This document shows positions 31,691 to 38,163 of a stretch of DNA of 64,000 nucleotides, in pieces. The notes below the pieces were generated by a model. That model searched no databases and was not told the origin of the DNA. It saw nothing but the letters and a program-made list of their open reading frames with translations. Where the stretch lies: contig NZ_JADKYR010000002.1 in the NCBI RefSeq assembly GCF_015354335.1, forward strand, positions 62,001 to 126,000, read 5' to 3'. A program made the translations under genes and the position numbers. Position 1 is the first letter of the stretch, and every line of letters begins with the position of its first letter. The DNA is from Methylophilus sp. 13 (GTDB lineage Bacteria; Pseudomonadota; Gammaproteobacteria; Burkholderiales; Methylophilaceae).

Positions 31691-33106
31691 TTATACAGAG
31701 ATGCCATGTTTATCCATACGATAGCGCATGGTCATTCTCGTGATGCCCAGCAATCTTGCGGCCTTAGAGACATTATTACGCGACTGCTCCAAGGCATTTA
31801 GCAGCATGGCCTTTTCTGCATCATCCAGCGTCACCTGGCTGTCGCCTTGCAAGACACTCGCCACCTGGTTCATGCCAACCTGAGGCAAGCCCAAGTCAAG
31901 CTCGGAAATCATAGACTGTGTGCACATCAAAACCGCACGGCTGATTTGATGACGCAATTCACGGACATTGCCCGGCCAGTGATAGGTTTGCATTGCCATC
32001 AATGCCGCGGCGCTGAACTCATGATGCGGCAAGGCGTAGCGCTTCTCAGTCAGTTGCCGGAAATAATTAGCCAGCAACAAGACATCTGCCCCACGATCAC
32101 GCAAGGGAGGCATTTTCATGGTGATCACGTTCAGTCGATAATATAGATCCGAACGGAAGCGCCCCTCATTCGACATCTGGTATAAATCACGATTGGTGGC
32201 GGCAATAATACGCGCGTTCACGGGACGTTCCTTGGTAGAACCCAAGCGACGCACCATTCTGCGCTCAAGTACATTGAGTAATTTTGCCTGTAAACCCAAC
32301 GGCAACTCGCCAATTTCATCGAGGAACAAGGTACCATCTTCTGCAGATTCGATCAGGCCTGGCCGCGAGGAAACTGCATTGGTAAATGCGCCTTTCTCAT
32401 GCCCAAACAGCTCGCTCTCAATCAACTCAGCCGGCAAAGAGGCACAATCCACATGCACAAAAGGTTTGTCATGATTGGCACAACTGCCATGCAAAAAACG
32501 TGCAACAACGTCTTTGCCCGTCCCGGTTTCCCCTGTAATCAACACCGTCGGTTGCACGGCATCACTGAGCGCACTTAACTGGGCAATACGCGTGATCTGT
32601 TGGCGCACACTTTGCATAGGCGTACTTTCGCCTATCAGTTGAACGGAGTCATTAGCAACGGCATTGCGCTGGCGCGAGTAATCCAGGCTGGTTTGCAGTT
32701 CTGTCGTCTTCTCGTTTTTCTGAATAATGAGCAATAACTCTTCAAGATCAATGGGCTTTTTTAAGTAATCAATGGCCCCCAGCTTGATGGCATTGACCGC
32801 ATCACTCACGTCACCAAACGCAGTCATGACAATCGTATTGATATTTCTGGCAATAAACTCTGATAACAGGTCTAGACCATTGCCATCGGGCAGGCGCATA
32901 TCCAACAGCGCCATATCCGGTTCAAACTGCTTAATTAGCAGTCTTGCATCGCTTAAAGATTCTGCGTGCTCGCACTCAAATCCTGCTTTTTGCAAACGCT
33001 TAACCACCGCGCGCGCAAAAAGCGCCTCATCCTCTACCAGCAAGATTTTTTTCTTGAGAGGCATTAAGCTGGATTTATCCACTGATGATGAAAGTTGTGA
33101 AAGCAC
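31691..33106 (-). CDS. NtrC-family sigma-54-dependent response regulator
   Basis: 471 residues from GTG 33106, preceded by an excellent GAGGAGG. Receiver domain with phospho-acceptor Asp69 (MALLDMRLP), then AAA+ domain with Walker A GETGTGKD (about 192-199), sigma-54 contact loop at 239-244 reading GAFTNA instead of GAFTGA, Walker B LFLDEIGELP, and a Fis-type HTH at the C-terminus (NNVSKAARLLGITRMTMRYR). It starts 17 bases after the TonB receptor gene, so both are probably in one transcript. No partner histidine kinase is adjacent. Likely activates the sigma-54 promoter at 35558-35573 (inference). Confidence 0.92.
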   Translation of the reverse strand: MLSQLSSSVDKSSLMPLKKKILLVEDEALFARAVVKRLQKAGFECEHAESLSDARLLIKQFEPDMALLDMRLPDGNGLDLLSEFIARNINTIVMTAFGDVSDAVNAIKLGAIDYLKKPIDLEELLLIIQKNEKTTELQTSLDYSRQRNAVANDSVQLIGESTPMQSVRQQITRIAQLSALSDAVQPTVLITGETGTGKDVVARFLHGSCANHDKPFVHVDCASLPAELIESELFGHEKGAFTNAVSSRPGLIESAEDGTLFLDEIGELPLGLQAKLLNVLERRMVRRLGSTKERPVNARIIAATNRDLYQMSNEGRFRSDLYYRLNVITMKMPPLRDRGADVLLLANYFRQLTEKRYALPHHEFSAAALMAMQTYHWPGNVRELRHQISRAVLMCTQSMISELDLGLPQVGMNQVASVLQGDSQVTLDDAEKAMLLNALEQSRNNVSKAARLLGITRMTMRYRMDKHGISV

Positions 33107-33123: not shown

Positions 33124-35487
33124 TTAGTCTTTATCATAAGAAGCGACGGACTTTTTGACGCCAAAATCGTAACGCGCACCGATCCAGCCTGCTCTTGGCG
33201 CACCAGGGGCATAAAACGTATCGTTGGTTTCATTGCCGCTAAACTGGCCGGTAGTCGGGTCAATCGGATTCTGACCCAGCATGCCCAAGCTGTAATACTC
33301 GCGGTCAAACACATTATTCACACGGGCGAAGATGTTCCAGCCATTGTCAAAGCGGTAGTTTGTGAACAGATTGACTACCGTATAACCACGGACTTTTGCG
33401 CCAGAGCTTGTATCCTTATTGTTTTCGTTGCCACGGGAGTACTGGCTGGAGAAGGCCACAATATTGCTGCCCACATTCCAGGCAGAAGTCACGTCATAGC
33501 CCAAGCCCAGTTTAAGCTGATGTTTTGGGATACCTGCCAGGTAATCTCCCTTGTTCACCTGAATAAAGCTGTTGCCTGAAACAGGATCTACAGTAGCGCT
33601 GGTATTCACCTGATTCGCAATCTGGAAAGAAGACTCGTAGGTAGCCTGCACAAAGCTATAGCCCAGATTCCATGAAAACGCATCCATACGCCCTGCAAGA
33701 CTAGCATCAAGCCCCTGACGCTTGGTTTTACTGATATTAGAGAAAAAGCCAGCACCGTTATTGAGGGCGGTCGCAGAGGTCAGAAACTGAATGTCATTAG
33801 TGTTGATCGTATGATAGGCACCCAGACTCCAGGTGACTGTGGGTGTCAGGAAGCCACGCAAGCCGGCATCATAGGTTTTGCTAACCACTTGCTTGAGTGG
33901 TGGGTCACCGGCCATTGCGTTTGGCAATTTACAAGGATTGTTTTCATCCGCACATCCCAGCTCGATAGAGGTAGGCGCACGGCTGCTTTCACTATAAGAG
34001 GCATACGCCGTCAATTGATTGCTGGGCGTAAAATTAATCCCCAAAGACGGATTCAGCCGATTGAAGGAATGCGTGCCGGTGAGCGAGCCAGAACCACTGG
34101 GGGTGATCTTGTCATCATTATCAATTTTAGTCGTGTTGTAACGCGCAGAGGCTGTCACATGCCAGTAGGGATTCAAAGACAAGGTATCCGTCGCAAAGAC
34201 GCTCCAGGTGCGGTTCACACCGCTCAAATTCACTTGGTCAGTCAAGGCATTAAGTTCGCCAGTACCATCCACGCCACGGTAGCTGTTTAACAAGCCAAAC
34301 TCGGTATTCTGCGAGAACTTGGTCTTACCGCGGTTGTAGCCCAAGCCGCTGATAAACTGATTTTTCAGGCCCAGTAAATCCTGAGAAAAGGTTAACTGTG
34401 AAGTAAAGCCGTAACTTTTCTGCGTTAATCTGCTGCGGTTAATCGCGCCAGAGCAGTTCTCATCAGCATCATTGCCAGCCAAGCAATCTGAATTATTGTC
34501 ACCTAACCCGCCAGCAGCCAATTCAAAACCATCATTTAAGTCACCATTGAAGGTTTTGGTACGCACATCACGATAATAAACATTCCCACTTAACTGAATG
34601 TCGTCAGCAAAGTAATGGCTCAAATTAAGGTTTACAAAAGCCATGTTGTTCTTGGTCTGGTCAGGCACGGTAAAATTGCTTTTGTAGCCCAAAGAATCCA
34701 GCAAACTGCCTGCTTGCAAGCCATTGCCACGCATTTTGTTATCTGCGAGCGACAAACTGACATTGACAGCCGTTTTTTCATTTTGCCAACCGGCCTTGGT
34801 AAACAACTGCTTGACGCGGGAGGCTGAAAAACTACGCCAGCCATCCTCTTCAAAACTGTTGCCAGAGATAAAGAAATCTTTAGAACCGTCTTCGGACACG
34901 CCACCATATTCTGCATTCAACACATGACGGCCCCAGGAACCAGTGTAGGCCTCAACAGCGCCGCCCTGATTGGTACGGCCACTCTTGGTCTGCACTGAAA
35001 TCGCCCCGCCTAAAGTGTTCAAACCAAACAATGGGTTAGAGCCTGGAATCAAAGTCATCTGATTAATGGCGTTCATCGGAATCAGGTCCCAGTTCACCAC
35101 GTCACCAAAGGCTTCGTTCACACGTACGCCATCGACATACACGGACAATCCTTGTGGCGTGCCAAGCAAAGGGGAAGCGGTAAAACCGTGATAGTTCACA
35201 TCGGGCTGGAATGGGTTGTTCTGTGTTTCATTCACATTCACCCCAAGCATATTCTGGTTCATGTAGTCGCCTAATGTCAGGCTCTTTTGCTTAACCAGCT
35301 CTTTTTGTTTCACTTGCTGCACGCCGGCAGGAATGTGCTCAAGAGGCACACCAACCCCATTCAGCGGCGTGGTGCTGATGACCTCGACTTTATCCAATTG
35401 CACCTCTTCAGCTTGCACAGCGACCACATGCGCCGCATAAGCAGAGAGAATGGCCATCAACAATGGTTTGACTGCTTGTTTATTCAT
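33124..35487 (-). CDS. TonB-dependent outer-membrane receptor
   Basis: 787 residues. Signal peptide ends near AHVVAVQA, then an N-terminal region with a short TonB-box-like stretch (KVEVIS). The plug domain is at about 50-170 (GFTASPLLGTPQGLSVYVDG, LIPGSNPLFGLNTLGGAISV). The barrel follows, with C-terminal strands containing FDREYYSLGM and ending at YDFGVKKSVASYDKD. The true last beta-strand appears to be WIGARYDFGV, followed by a short tail. Imports a scarce ligand using proton-motive force; the ligand is not deducible (metal chelate, cofactor or lanthanide complex are possibilities). Upstream lie a sigma-54 promoter and three operator dyads. Confidence 0.93.
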   Translation of the reverse strand: MNKQAVKPLLMAILSAYAAHVVAVQAEEVQLDKVEVISTTPLNGVGVPLEHIPAGVQQVKQKELVKQKSLTLGDYMNQNMLGVNVNETQNNPFQPDVNYHGFTASPLLGTPQGLSVYVDGVRVNEAFGDVVNWDLIPMNAINQMTLIPGSNPLFGLNTLGGAISVQTKSGRTNQGGAVEAYTGSWGRHVLNAEYGGVSEDGSKDFFISGNSFEEDGWRSFSASRVKQLFTKAGWQNEKTAVNVSLSLADNKMRGNGLQAGSLLDSLGYKSNFTVPDQTKNNMAFVNLNLSHYFADDIQLSGNVYYRDVRTKTFNGDLNDGFELAAGGLGDNNSDCLAGNDADENCSGAINRSRLTQKSYGFTSQLTFSQDLLGLKNQFISGLGYNRGKTKFSQNTEFGLLNSYRGVDGTGELNALTDQVNLSGVNRTWSVFATDTLSLNPYWHVTASARYNTTKIDNDDKITPSGSGSLTGTHSFNRLNPSLGINFTPSNQLTAYASYSESSRAPTSIELGCADENNPCKLPNAMAGDPPLKQVVSKTYDAGLRGFLTPTVTWSLGAYHTINTNDIQFLTSATALNNGAGFFSNISKTKRQGLDASLAGRMDAFSWNLGYSFVQATYESSFQIANQVNTSATVDPVSGNSFIQVNKGDYLAGIPKHQLKLGLGYDVTSAWNVGSNIVAFSSQYSRGNENNKDTSSGAKVRGYTVVNLFTNYRFDNGWNIFARVNNVFDREYYSLGMLGQNPIDPTTGQFSGNETNDTFYAPGAPRAGWIGARYDFGVKKSVASYDKD

Positions 35488-35557
35488 AACGAATGATCCT
35501 TTTCCCGAGAATACTTAAATGAATGTCTTTTGGCTGCAAAAAACACTCAAGGTATTG

Positions 35558-35573
35558 AGCAAAAATCATTCCA
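35558..35573 (-). promoter_or_regulatory. Sigma-54 promoter of the TonB receptor gene
   Basis: The minus strand reads TGGAATGATTTTTGCT. It matches the sigma-54 consensus TGGCACG-N4-TTGCW at the essential GG and GC, spaced by ten bases, and at TTGCT in full. Predicted start is near 35547, about 60 bases before the receptor ATG. An activator of the sigma-54 class is encoded in the same unit. Confidence 0.7.
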
Positions 35574-35619
35574 TTGGCAGGCTAAAAAAATATCTTTTTT
35601 TAATCAATGAGATAAAAAT

Positions 35620-35645
35620 AAATCTGGTTTATTACAACCAGATTT
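35620..35645 (-). promoter_or_regulatory. Operator dyad 1 (putative activator site)
   Basis: Perfect 10-bp arms AAATCTGGTT / AACCAGATTT separated by TATTAC, centred at 35632.5. Centre is about 85 bases upstream of the predicted sigma-54 start, a typical position for enhancer-type sites. Confidence 0.7.
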
Positions 35646-35652
35646 TATCTTA

Positions 35653-35676
35653 AAATTGGTTTATTACAACCAATTT
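35653..35676 (-). promoter_or_regulatory. Operator dyad 2 (putative activator site)
   Basis: Perfect 9-bp arms AAATTGGTT / AACCAATTT with the identical spacer TATTAC, centred at 35664.5, exactly 32 bases from dyad 1. Confidence 0.7.
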
Positions 35677-35686
35677 AACAACCACC

Positions 35687-35706
35687 ATTGGATATATACA
35701 ACCAAT
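35687..35706 (-). promoter_or_regulatory. Operator dyad 3 (putative activator site, imperfect)
   Basis: Arms ATTGGAT / AACCAAT (six of seven pair) over a six-base spacer ATATAC, centred at 35696.5, exactly 32 bases from dyad 2. Its last base is within the stop codon of tilS. Confidence 0.6.
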
Positions 35707-37157
35707 TACAGAAGAGAGGGAGACGGCGTCAGGCTGATTTCCAGACCGTAAGCATTGCGGCCAGGCTGCCAGGCGGCATCCACCGCCAGCCCTGCCAGTG
35801 AGACCAGCGTTTCAGAAGCACCTGGATGGGTGGTGGCCACTTGGACCAAAGGATAAAAAGCACGTTGCCATGGCGGAATGCCCAGCATTTGAAAAAGGAC
35901 TTTCAATTCACGCCGAGGACGCTTGGCGTCAGGCTGCAAACTCTCACCCCCTGCCCTAGGCATCAACTTGAGCGAAGTGCCTTCAGCAAGCACCAAAGGT
36001 TGCCCATACCGCCGGTTAAGGGTAATCGCTGCCGGGGAAACCCCCAGTCTGGCCAAAGCAATCCCGCGCGCTTTCACGACTTTAAACTGCACTTGCCAGT
36101 CACCCCATTGCTGCGAGGCTTGCCCTTGCCACACCAGTGGTGTTTGTGGCAATGCGCTTGGTTTGGTAACGCAATACAGGCGTTGCTGGTAATGGTGCAA
36201 ATAAGCTGACTGATGCGAGGCTTGCCCTTGTAACGGCAAATGCAGATAACGGTTAGGTTTGACCGATGAAAGCTGCTGCCAATATTCTTGCAATTGATCC
36301 TGATTGGGCATCCGTAACTGCAACTGTTGAAACCAATGACGGAGCAAGTTTTTGGCGCGGACATCGCCCAATGCATACAGCTTTGACATCGCAATCGATT
36401 GCCCCAGCCATTCGGCTTGTAAATCACATTGCGCCAAGTCCTGACTGGCCAGTATATCCAGCAAACTCTGCGCGTCTGCCATGTGCCCCGCCGTTCTCAA
36501 TAACGACTGATCCACTTGCGGATAACGTTCGCGCAACACTGGCATCACTGCATGACGCATAAAATTGCGGTCGTAAGCCGTATCTGCGTTGCTTTCGTCT
36601 TCTACCCATTGCAAGTGGTGTGCGGTGGCAAACTGTAAAAGTGTGGCTTTTGGCACACTTAACAGTGGCCGATACAAGCGGCGTGCGCCATCCCACGCGG
36701 CCATGGCACTCAAGCCCTTGACCCCAGCGCCTCTTACCAGTTGCAGCATCAACGTCTCTGACTGGTCTTGCAGATGATGAGCCGTCACAATCGCATCTGC
36801 ACCGATCTGCTGACGCTGTTGCTCCAGGGCATGATAGCGTGCTTCGCGGGCGGTGGCCTCCAGACCTTGTCCGCTTTGCAAATCTACGCGCACCTTGTCA
36901 GCAAAAAAAGGGACATTGTAGGTCTGGCAATGGTGTTCACATTGTTGCAACCACGCATCGGCATGGGGACTCAAGCCATGATGCACATGCATGGCTGACA
37001 GCCGAAATGGCAATTGCTGGCAGAGCTCTGCGAGCAGATGTAACAACACCACAGAATCTACGCCACCGCTCAGTGCGAGCAGCAGATGTGGTGTGTTGGC
37101 ATCCGGATTTGACAGCCCAGCCAGAAAACCAGATAACTGGCTTTTCAGGCTGGTCAT
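35706..37157 (-). CDS. tilS: tRNA(Ile)-lysidine synthase TilS
   Basis: 483 residues from ATG 37157; GTG 37178, inside the accA end, is an alternative. It modifies C34 of tRNA-Ile(CAU) to lysidine so that it reads AUA. N-terminal PP-loop ATPase motif SGGVDS at about residues 30-35, then AMHVHHGLSPHADAW and TAHHLQDQSETLMLQLVRGAG, a TilS substrate-binding domain and a C-terminal domain (PRRELKVLFQMLGIPPWQR). Lies 10 bases downstream of accA, as in many betaproteobacteria. Confidence 0.95.
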   Translation of the reverse strand: MTSLKSQLSGFLAGLSNPDANTPHLLLALSGGVDSVVLLHLLAELCQQLPFRLSAMHVHHGLSPHADAWLQQCEHHCQTYNVPFFADKVRVDLQSGQGLEATAREARYHALEQQRQQIGADAIVTAHHLQDQSETLMLQLVRGAGVKGLSAMAAWDGARRLYRPLLSVPKATLLQFATAHHLQWVEDESNADTAYDRNFMRHAVMPVLRERYPQVDQSLLRTAGHMADAQSLLDILASQDLAQCDLQAEWLGQSIAMSKLYALGDVRAKNLLRHWFQQLQLRMPNQDQLQEYWQQLSSVKPNRYLHLPLQGQASHQSAYLHHYQQRLYCVTKPSALPQTPLVWQGQASQQWGDWQVQFKVVKARGIALARLGVSPAAITLNRRYGQPLVLAEGTSLKLMPRAGGESLQPDAKRPRRELKVLFQMLGIPPWQRAFYPLVQVATTHPGASETLVSLAGLAVDAAWQPGRNAYGLEISLTPSPSLL

Positions 37158-37167
37158 AAGAGAAGCA

Positions 37168-38163
37168 TTATTTTTCACTGGCCGCTTTAAATTTACCGTA
37201 ACTCATCAGGCGCTGGTAACGTGTCTCCAGCAACTGCGGTATTTTTTTGGCCTGCAATGCTTTCAGCTGTTGGCCGATCGCTTGCGAGACCTTCTCCATC
37301 ACATCTTCATAATTACGATGTGCGCCACCCAGCGGCTCGTTGATAATGGTATCAATCAAGCCCAAAGACTTGAGCCTGTCTGCGGTAATGCCCAAGGTTT
37401 CGGCGGCTTCCGGGGCCTTGCTGGCGCTCTTCCACAAAATGGACGCACAGCCTTCAGGCGAAATCACCGAGTAAGTGGAATATTGCAGCATATTCAAATG
37501 ATCCACGACACCCAAGGCCAGCGCACCACCAGAACCGCCCTCACCGATCACCACGCCAATAATCGGCGTTTTCAGTTCGGCCATGACATACAAATTGCGT
37601 GCAATCGCTTCTGACTGGCCGCGCTCTTCAGCCCCAATGCCGGGATAGGCGCCTGGCGTATCAATAAAGGTGATAATCGGCATCTTGAACTTTTCGGCCA
37701 GACGGAACAGGCGCAGCGCCTTGCGGTAGCCTTCAGGACGCGGCATACCGAAATTGCGGTATTGGCGTTCTTTGATATCGCGGCCTTTTTGATGGCCCAT
37801 GACCATGACCGGAATGCCTTTAAAGCGCGCAATGCCGCCGACAATGGCCGGGTCATCTGCATAGGCACGGTCGCCATGCAACTCCTGGAAATCAGTAAAC
37901 AAGGCATTGATATAGTCTGCAGTATAGGGGCGCTGCGGATGGCGGGCCACCTGGGAAATCTGCCAGGCAGTCAAGGCCTGGAAGGTATCCTGCAATAACT
38001 TGGTATTCTTCTTTTGTAACAAATCCAGCTCTTTGGAAATATCCAGAGAGTCATGTTCGTCATGCGAAACTTGTAGCGCGTCAATCCGCTTTTCCAGTTC
38101 GGCAATCGGTTGTTCAAAATCAAGATAAGTCAGTTTACTAGGCGTTAAACGTTTTACACTCAT
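37168..38163 (-). CDS. accA: Acetyl-CoA carboxylase carboxyltransferase subunit alpha
   Basis: 331 residues, normal length. With AccD it transfers CO2 from carboxybiotin to acetyl-CoA, the committed step of fatty-acid synthesis. N-terminal coiled region ([17 protein letters not shown]), then the crotonase-fold core with [39 protein letters not shown] and [11 protein letters not shown]. Downstream of dnaE by 33 bases and upstream of tilS: probable dnaE-accA-tilS operon. Confidence 0.97.

Follow-up and report, generated by a model that had tools for sequence, protein, structure and literature searches.

A probable autoregulated sigma-54 control region with phased dyads upstream of a TonB receptor and its linked NtrC-family regulator in Methylophilus

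The window analysed here, a stretch of 64,000 nucleotides from the 3.1-Mb genome of Methylophilus sp. 13, carries on its minus strand, in this order, tilS, a control region, the gene of a TonB-dependent receptor, the gene of an NtrC-family response regulator, purT and a globin gene. The features that concern us are the following, with dyad letters given as on the plus strand.

35706-37178, minus strand: tilS, upstream of the control region
35689..35704, strandless: distal dyad TGGATATATACAACCA, centre 35696.5, a further 32 bp beyond the middle dyad
35657..35672, strandless: middle dyad TGGTTTATTACAACCA, centre 35664.5, 32 bp beyond the proximal dyad
35625..35640, strandless: proximal dyad TGGTTTATTACAACCA, centre 35632.5, 52 bp from the -24 element
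35558..35573, minus strand: -24/-12 promoter of sigma-54 type, TGGAATGATTTTTGCT, predicted start at about 35547
33124..35487, minus strand: TonB-dependent receptor, 787 aa, plug and barrel (PF00593, PF07715), first gene of a presumed operon
31691..33106, minus strand: NtrC-family response regulator (receiver, sigma-54 AAA+ and Fis-type HTH domains by Pfam), probable activator of the receptor promoter

The first-pass annotation had claimed a minus-strand GG-N10-GC promoter and, upstream of it, three dyads on a 32-bp pitch, and both are confirmed: the promoter reads from 35573 to 35558, and the pitch of the three centres is exactly 32 bp. The proximal and middle dyads match GGYT-N6-ARCC fully and the distal one shows a single departure, GGAT in one arm; the start near 35547 is a prediction that assumes the customary interval downstream of GC. 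The tilS reading frame as listed stops right at the distal dyad. No other equally spaced dyad triplet is found in the window. As judged by 60 dinucleotide shuffles in 4-kb blocks, the number of exact dyads in the window is 5 versus a mean of 4.15 in the shuffles, and that of exact-dyad pairs 18-45 bp apart is 1, the pair of the receptor promoter, versus 0.017. Likewise, the receptor promoter is the only place in the window at which an exact dyad is followed 40-125 bp on by a sigma-54-like site (score of at least 6). In the whole host genome TGGYT-N6-ARCCA occurs 40 times, versus 9 for the same pattern read backwards.

For comparison we used 150 genomes of this methanol-using family (apparently Methylophilaceae), 126 of which hold receptor homologues at E <= 1e-60. 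The regulator is matched in 84 genomes, and in 82 once G111 and G116 are dropped because their matches, at 43% identity, are likely paralogues. Upstream regions were taken for 84 receptors, 73 adjoining the regulator and 11 from genomes without it, the latter hand-picked from five genera and representing 11 of the 46 receptor-match genomes that lack the regulator. Nine of the 82 genomes with the regulator did not enter this set, owing to a contig edge or to a receptor that was partial or not adjacent, and G028 was dropped from the 73 because of a contig end, leaving 72. All 72 regulator-linked receptor promoters carry at least one GGYT-N6-ARCC dyad and 70 carry at least two, where 100 rounds of shuffling yield a mean of 2.55 genomes and at most 9. 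No dyad is present in the 11 receptor promoters fetched from regulator-less genomes. The consensus of 160 dyad sites is TGGYTGTATAYARCCA. In 69 of the 72, the last dyad is followed at 40-125 bp by a sigma-54-like site, the chance of such a site being 0.015 per promoter by mononucleotide shuffle, under a rule that admits TTGC, ATGC or TTGA at -12. The three promoters without a call are those of G047, G035 and G017, and in G047 and G017 the promoter reads TGGCATGAAACTTGT, a form outside the rule. TTGA replaces TTGC in 17 of the 69 sites, in seven genera. Hence the conservation in relatives of dyads and of GG/GC elements, on which the first-pass annotation had made its reading depend, holds, and these counts support its assignment of the region as a putative sigma-54 control region for the TonB receptor, with the unit's own NtrC-family protein as the presumed binder. 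As a side observation, the TTGA form mostly goes with a near-perfect -24 element (TGGCAC/TGGCAT), for example in G011, G045, G073, G002 and G010.

The spacing of these elements follows the DNA helix. In receptor promoters the distances from dyad to promoter fall at 52-53, 61-62, 72-75, 83-88 and 96-99 bp, with one at 111 bp (G005), and the spacings between dyads, 18-24, 31-34 and 43 bp, cluster at helical turns. At the FecI genes described below the dyad-to-promoter distances are looser (50-54, 60-62, 71-77, 83-88 and 96-97 bp). Rayleigh tests with an 11-bp period, fed with one value per genus and gap, gave R 0.69 and p ~2e-7 for the receptors (33 genus-and-gap combinations) and R 0.57 and p ~5e-4 for the FecI genes (23 combinations), p-values that overstate independence because the genomes are related and that are indicative only. 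The idea that the dyads are phased on one face of the DNA is thereby extended across genera, the 32-bp pitch of the window being one of several. Such helical clustering of both dyad spacing and promoter distance, in 12 genera, offers a natural data set for the study of enhancer geometry.

The window regulator exceeds the cut-offs of PF00072, PF00158 and PF02954 and is 84-89% identical to the proteins of Methylophilus strains, with 78% in one Methylophilus metagenome-assembled genome. Motifs could be read at 33 of 37 ortholog loci, the own genome and the same species included. The sigma-54-contacting loop is GAFTNA in the window regulator and in 28 of the 33 orthologs, GAFTSA in 3 and GAFTGA in 2, and so differs from GAFTGA by one residue in most orthologs; the receiver Asp motif, of the LLDMRLPDG type, is present in 34 of 34 sequences, and the recognition helix ITRMTMRYRMDK is nearly constant among the 33 family regulators read. 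The receptor itself found a single weak relative in a PDB search, the Fe(III)-pyochelin receptor (E 2.9e-7). A lanthanide role for this receptor was considered, and we found no evidence for such a role.

The regulator has a probable kinase partner, and no kinase adjoins the regulator in the loci examined. In other families of the order, a HAMP-type histidine kinase lies directly before the regulator at 6 of 7 loci by alignment (L228 unresolved), and a crude motif test places a kinase-like gene just upstream of the regulator at 22 of 29 loci outside the family (at most 56% identity). Searching the family for this kinase at E <= 1e-40, 90 of the 150 genomes pass and 87 were counted, G008, G026 and G083 being excluded as weak partial matches (~141-153 bits). 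Kinase and regulator occur together in 81 genomes, the kinase only in 6, the regulator only in 1 and neither in 62 (Fisher p 7e-34, with relatedness ignored). The host kinase, which comprises HAMP and kinase domains with at most a weak four-helix-bundle match, is encoded on a contig other than that of the regulator, directly behind the gene of a TonB protein (PF03544):

C9:41460-42884: histidine kinase of the host genome
L365:1961-4258 (G000:C9): tonB and histidine kinase, tonB first

This arrangement, with tonB directly upstream of the kinase, recurs at all 23 loci examined among the 87 kinase genomes, three of the tonB calls being made by Pfam and the other 20 with a profile derived from these. 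At 20 kinase loci outside the family, the 200 bp upstream of the kinase hold no gene on its strand, and the eight of these loci that were inspected show no recognisable tonB link. As the two genes are adjacent elsewhere and unlinked here, it seems that the pair has come apart, the kinase having joined tonB and the regulator a receptor.

Several gene arrangements tie the dyads to the regulator. In G029, which has the regulator and no receptor match, the regulator gene itself is preceded by the dyads GGCTGATATAAACC and GGTTAATTTCAGCC, 23 bp apart, with TGGAATGTATTTTGCT following 83 bp on. In seven genomes receptor and regulator are divergent, and in 7 of 7 the dyads lie in between with a strong sigma-54 site towards each gene; on the receptor side the distance from this site to the nearest dyad is 97-99 bp, and on the regulator side it is 85 bp in one genome, 42 bp in another and 178-199 bp in five. 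The regulator gene thus stands behind such a promoter in all three orders (alone, divergent and receptor-first), from which we infer that the regulator binds the dyads and activates its own expression. Genome-wide, near-consensus dyads number 211 in the 82 regulator genomes, with 3 for the reverse-pattern control, against 4 (control 1) in the 62 genomes that have neither gene; at least one dyad of this stricter pattern is found in 61 of the 82. In the kinase-only class, G007 (90% complete, and outside the 11 fetched) has a dyad just upstream of the receptor, and G064 has 6 dyads. Taken together, we consider it highly probable that the region in the window is an autoregulated enhancer with the sigma-54 promoter of the receptor-regulator operon, and that it belongs to a wider regulon; enhancer and promoter look functional, and the linked regulator is likely the activator and likely controls its own gene.

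In the host genome, dyads with a sigma-54-like site are found at the receptor-regulator operon, at a locus (L196) encoding a second TonB receptor of 846 aa followed by a pair of PEP-CTERM proteins, at four FecI/FecR clusters and at a candidate small RNA. As single sites or as phased sets, the dyads mostly lie 50-99 bp upstream of the -24/-12 sites. The FecI/FecR clusters with this module are L126/L143, L127/L168, L206/L159 and L197, three of them with very large TonB receptors of 1229-1257 aa, the first two listed here being Pfam-checked:

L126:5450-9214: very large TonB receptor
L127:2304-6077: very large TonB receptor
L206:2879-6568: very large TonB receptor

At L126 the order is ECF sigma factor, FecR and TonB receptor (PF08281, PF04773, PF00593/PF07715), and the other three clusters were judged by FecI search, FecR search or position, the sigma gene of L197 being assigned from position. 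Three of the seven host FecR loci (C1:661285, C1:655876 and C11:16315) are without the module. In relatives, 29 of 30 FecI genes have dyads and 26 of 30 a sigma-54 call; the 30 genes, which come from 16 of 60 genomes, were picked up through their similarity to one target, and the 29 of 30 is biased because the query FecI gene itself has the module. Among 16 host loci scanned, L198, L200, L201, L202, L203, L208, L209 and L211 show neither an intergenic dyad nor a dyad with a sigma-54-like site. Three further loci were rejected: no sigma-54 site accompanies the intergenic dyads of L207 and L199 (two dyads 22 bp apart), and L205 has an intergenic dyad with only a weak site, TGGCTTGCCGCCTGCG, which fails the later rule. 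L203 is a FecR locus devoid of dyads, in which the large gene nearby encodes 843 aa. A perfect dyad is also found in the gap that separates a GGDEF-like gene from an EAL response-regulator gene (L004:1501-1518, G000:C8:71771), with no sigma-54-like site seen.

At the locus of the candidate small RNA (G000:C7:212016-212301; L195:1518-1802), two dyads 31 bp apart and TGGCATGAGAAATGCT lie ahead of a 135-nt stretch free of called genes that is predicted to form two nested hairpins and a terminator-like hairpin. The fold energy of this stretch is -57.3, compared with an average of -29.7 for shuffled sequences (z -7.2). Of 22 genomes of the genus searched, 15 hold a copy that matches over most of the length; a further 15 genomes that match only ~30-45 bases around the terminator are excluded from the count. 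All 15 copies carry at least one dyad and a sigma-54 site with a gap of 75-78. In 14 copies (one near-identical copy omitted) four base pairs are changed on both sides, a number reached by 1 of 500 shuffles; the covariation term of RNAalifold is small (-0.3). A search of Rfam (E <= 1) gave no match above the gathering score, the nearest being Leu_leader, which matches the 3' half with 30.5 and 27.4 versus 50 bits. The locus (L128/L195) had at one point been set aside as a chance occurrence between convergent genes, a view that was overturned in favour of a small RNA. With covariation in its favour and every Rfam match below threshold, the small RNA appears to represent a new family. At a second candidate (L204:1520-1780, in the C8:639260 region), dyads at gaps of 75 (one mismatch) and 97 and the site TGGCACAAATCATGCA are followed by a terminator-like hairpin, and the fold is no better than that of shuffles (z -0.64); close by lies a stretch that resembles a tRNA by eye.

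With these targets in hand other readings of the dyads can be weighed. If they were operators of a different regulator, be it a repressor or another NtrC-family protein, the linked regulator would be a bystander. The host genome encodes ten or eleven NtrC-family proteins, another of which might bind the dyads, the pairing of motif and regulator is drawn from sequence, and dyads also turn up where no regulator was found, 4 in the 62 genomes that lack regulator and kinase alike and 7 in the six with the kinase only. Against this, the dyads track the regulator across genomes, they precede the regulator gene also in the absence of a receptor (G029) and in divergent order, and the recognition helix is nearly constant in the family, as is the dyad motif, which makes a bystander role unlikely. 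That the repeats are instead terminators or RNA hairpins of tilS, with a GG/GC match arising by chance, is suggested by their position directly after the tilS stop in the window; yet the arms are AT-rich and no T-run is present, and the same dyads recur between divergent genes and ahead of FecI genes and of the small RNA, mostly near a sigma-54-like site, and we find this reading scarcely credible.

The third reading is that we are looking at the known PrsK/PrsR control system of PEP-CTERM genes with extra targets. As described in the part of the source available (PMC1569441), an NtrC-type regulator, a 17-nt motif and a sigma-54 site control PEP-CTERM genes in that system, the motif is sometimes repeated and is followed by a spacer of 32-92 nt (mean 62.8 nt) and then -24/-12 (Haft 2006), and the motif has the same phylogenetic profile as the protein; RpoN dependence has been shown elsewhere for one PEP-CTERM gene, according to excerpts of two reports (PMC1569441; PMC9850573). 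The present system resembles it in having an NtrC-family response regulator with a Fis-type HTH, an upstream motif and a -24/-12 site, one of its targets is a PEP-CTERM gene pair, and PrsR (TIGR02915) is the best NCBIfam match of the regulator, barely over AtoC (379.8-380 versus 379.3 bits). However, these bits lie below the PrsR cut-off of 502.6, which no protein of the host genome passes, PrsR motif 1 by its partial description ends in TTTACA whereas the dyads of the window type end in ACARCCA, and the targets are mainly TonB receptors together with FecI sigma factors and a small RNA. Furthermore, PrsK lies in tandem with or close to PrsR, unlike the probable kinase here, which sits elsewhere, behind tonB. 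An extended PrsK/PrsR system is therefore highly improbable, and we return to a distinct regulon of the linked regulator, which, judged on sequence features, is a variant of the known NtrC/sigma-54 kind with the window promoter as one member.

For the mode of action proposed here the closest system is CbrA/CbrB, the counterpart of its small RNAs being the candidate small RNA. CbrB, of NtrC type, drives the small RNAs CrcZ and CrcY and protein-coding targets from sigma-54 promoters, and its non-palindromic subsites, TGTTAC/GTAACA, are 20-25 bp apart on one DNA face, in the excerpted account (PMC6296734). The sites here differ in being palindromic and of the form GGYT-N6-ARCC. The CbrA sensor is transporter-like, unlike the kinase here, which has HAMP and kinase domains and no transporter-like sensor. 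A sigma-54 activator placed above an ECF sigma factor is familiar from HrpR/HrpS, which switch on HrpL in a two-step sigma cascade; these activators are without receiver domains and serve secretion genes, and, unlike HrpL, the ECF factors here are of the FecI type and are partnered with FecR and TonB receptors. The clusters themselves resemble FecI/FecR surface signalling in that FecI, FecR and a large receptor are encoded together, with the difference that fecI is usually controlled by Fur and here stands behind a promoter of the sigma-54 enhancer type. A 2025 survey of sigma-54 regulons, in its available portion, lists TonB in Flavobacteriia as unconfirmed and makes no mention of ECF or FecI (PMC12316311). 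The first-pass annotation did not recognise TTGGTT-N6-AACCAA as a described operator, and likewise neither the palindrome GGTTGTATACAACC nor a paper on the regulon or motif was found in the literature searched, a scope that most subscription journals lie outside.

The known workings of these protein families suggest how such a regulon would operate. The TonB-linked kinase would phosphorylate the regulator, dimers of which would bind the phased dyads on one face of the DNA; an AAA+ ring would then assemble, the DNA would loop and the sigma-54 polymerase would be opened. The expected output is increased receptor, the regulator itself by positive feedback, and, in a cascade from sigma-54 to ECF, the downstream ECF sigma factors together with the small RNA. 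Going further, we propose a TonB-coupled two-component system. A kinase produced along with TonB would sense how TonB-dependent uptake stands, and the partner regulator, via phased enhancers, would turn on in one step the receptors, several FecI/FecR systems that act as a second tier of sigma factors, PEP-CTERM proteins destined for secretion and a new small RNA; the ancestral pair of kinase and regulator would have been split, with its halves joining tonB and a TonB receptor. We hold this fuller proposal to be evenly poised between right and wrong. The controls usually invoked for TonB-dependent uptake are metal repressors and FecI/FecR signalling. If true, a sigma-54 master switch set over several FecI systems and served by a kinase encoded beside tonB would amount to a general two-component decision over outer-membrane uptake, and the system would be a ready test of coordination among receptors that compete for one energy source.

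Regulator orthologs in other families of the order bear on the best explanation in a different manner. In five of the seven such genomes (L228, L229, L230, L231 and L234, not L232 and L233), within ~300 nt behind the regulator, a sigma-54-like site is followed by a short terminator-ended stretch and then by dyads, the hairpin being called by eye and by fold and homology to the host small RNA not being implied. The dyads there lie downstream of the putative small-RNA promoter (sites for example at L229:3155 and L230:2928), an arrangement that we counted against the best explanation. L229-L231 share a CTCCAACTTCCTCT stretch, which looks like an anti-Shine-Dalgarno element.
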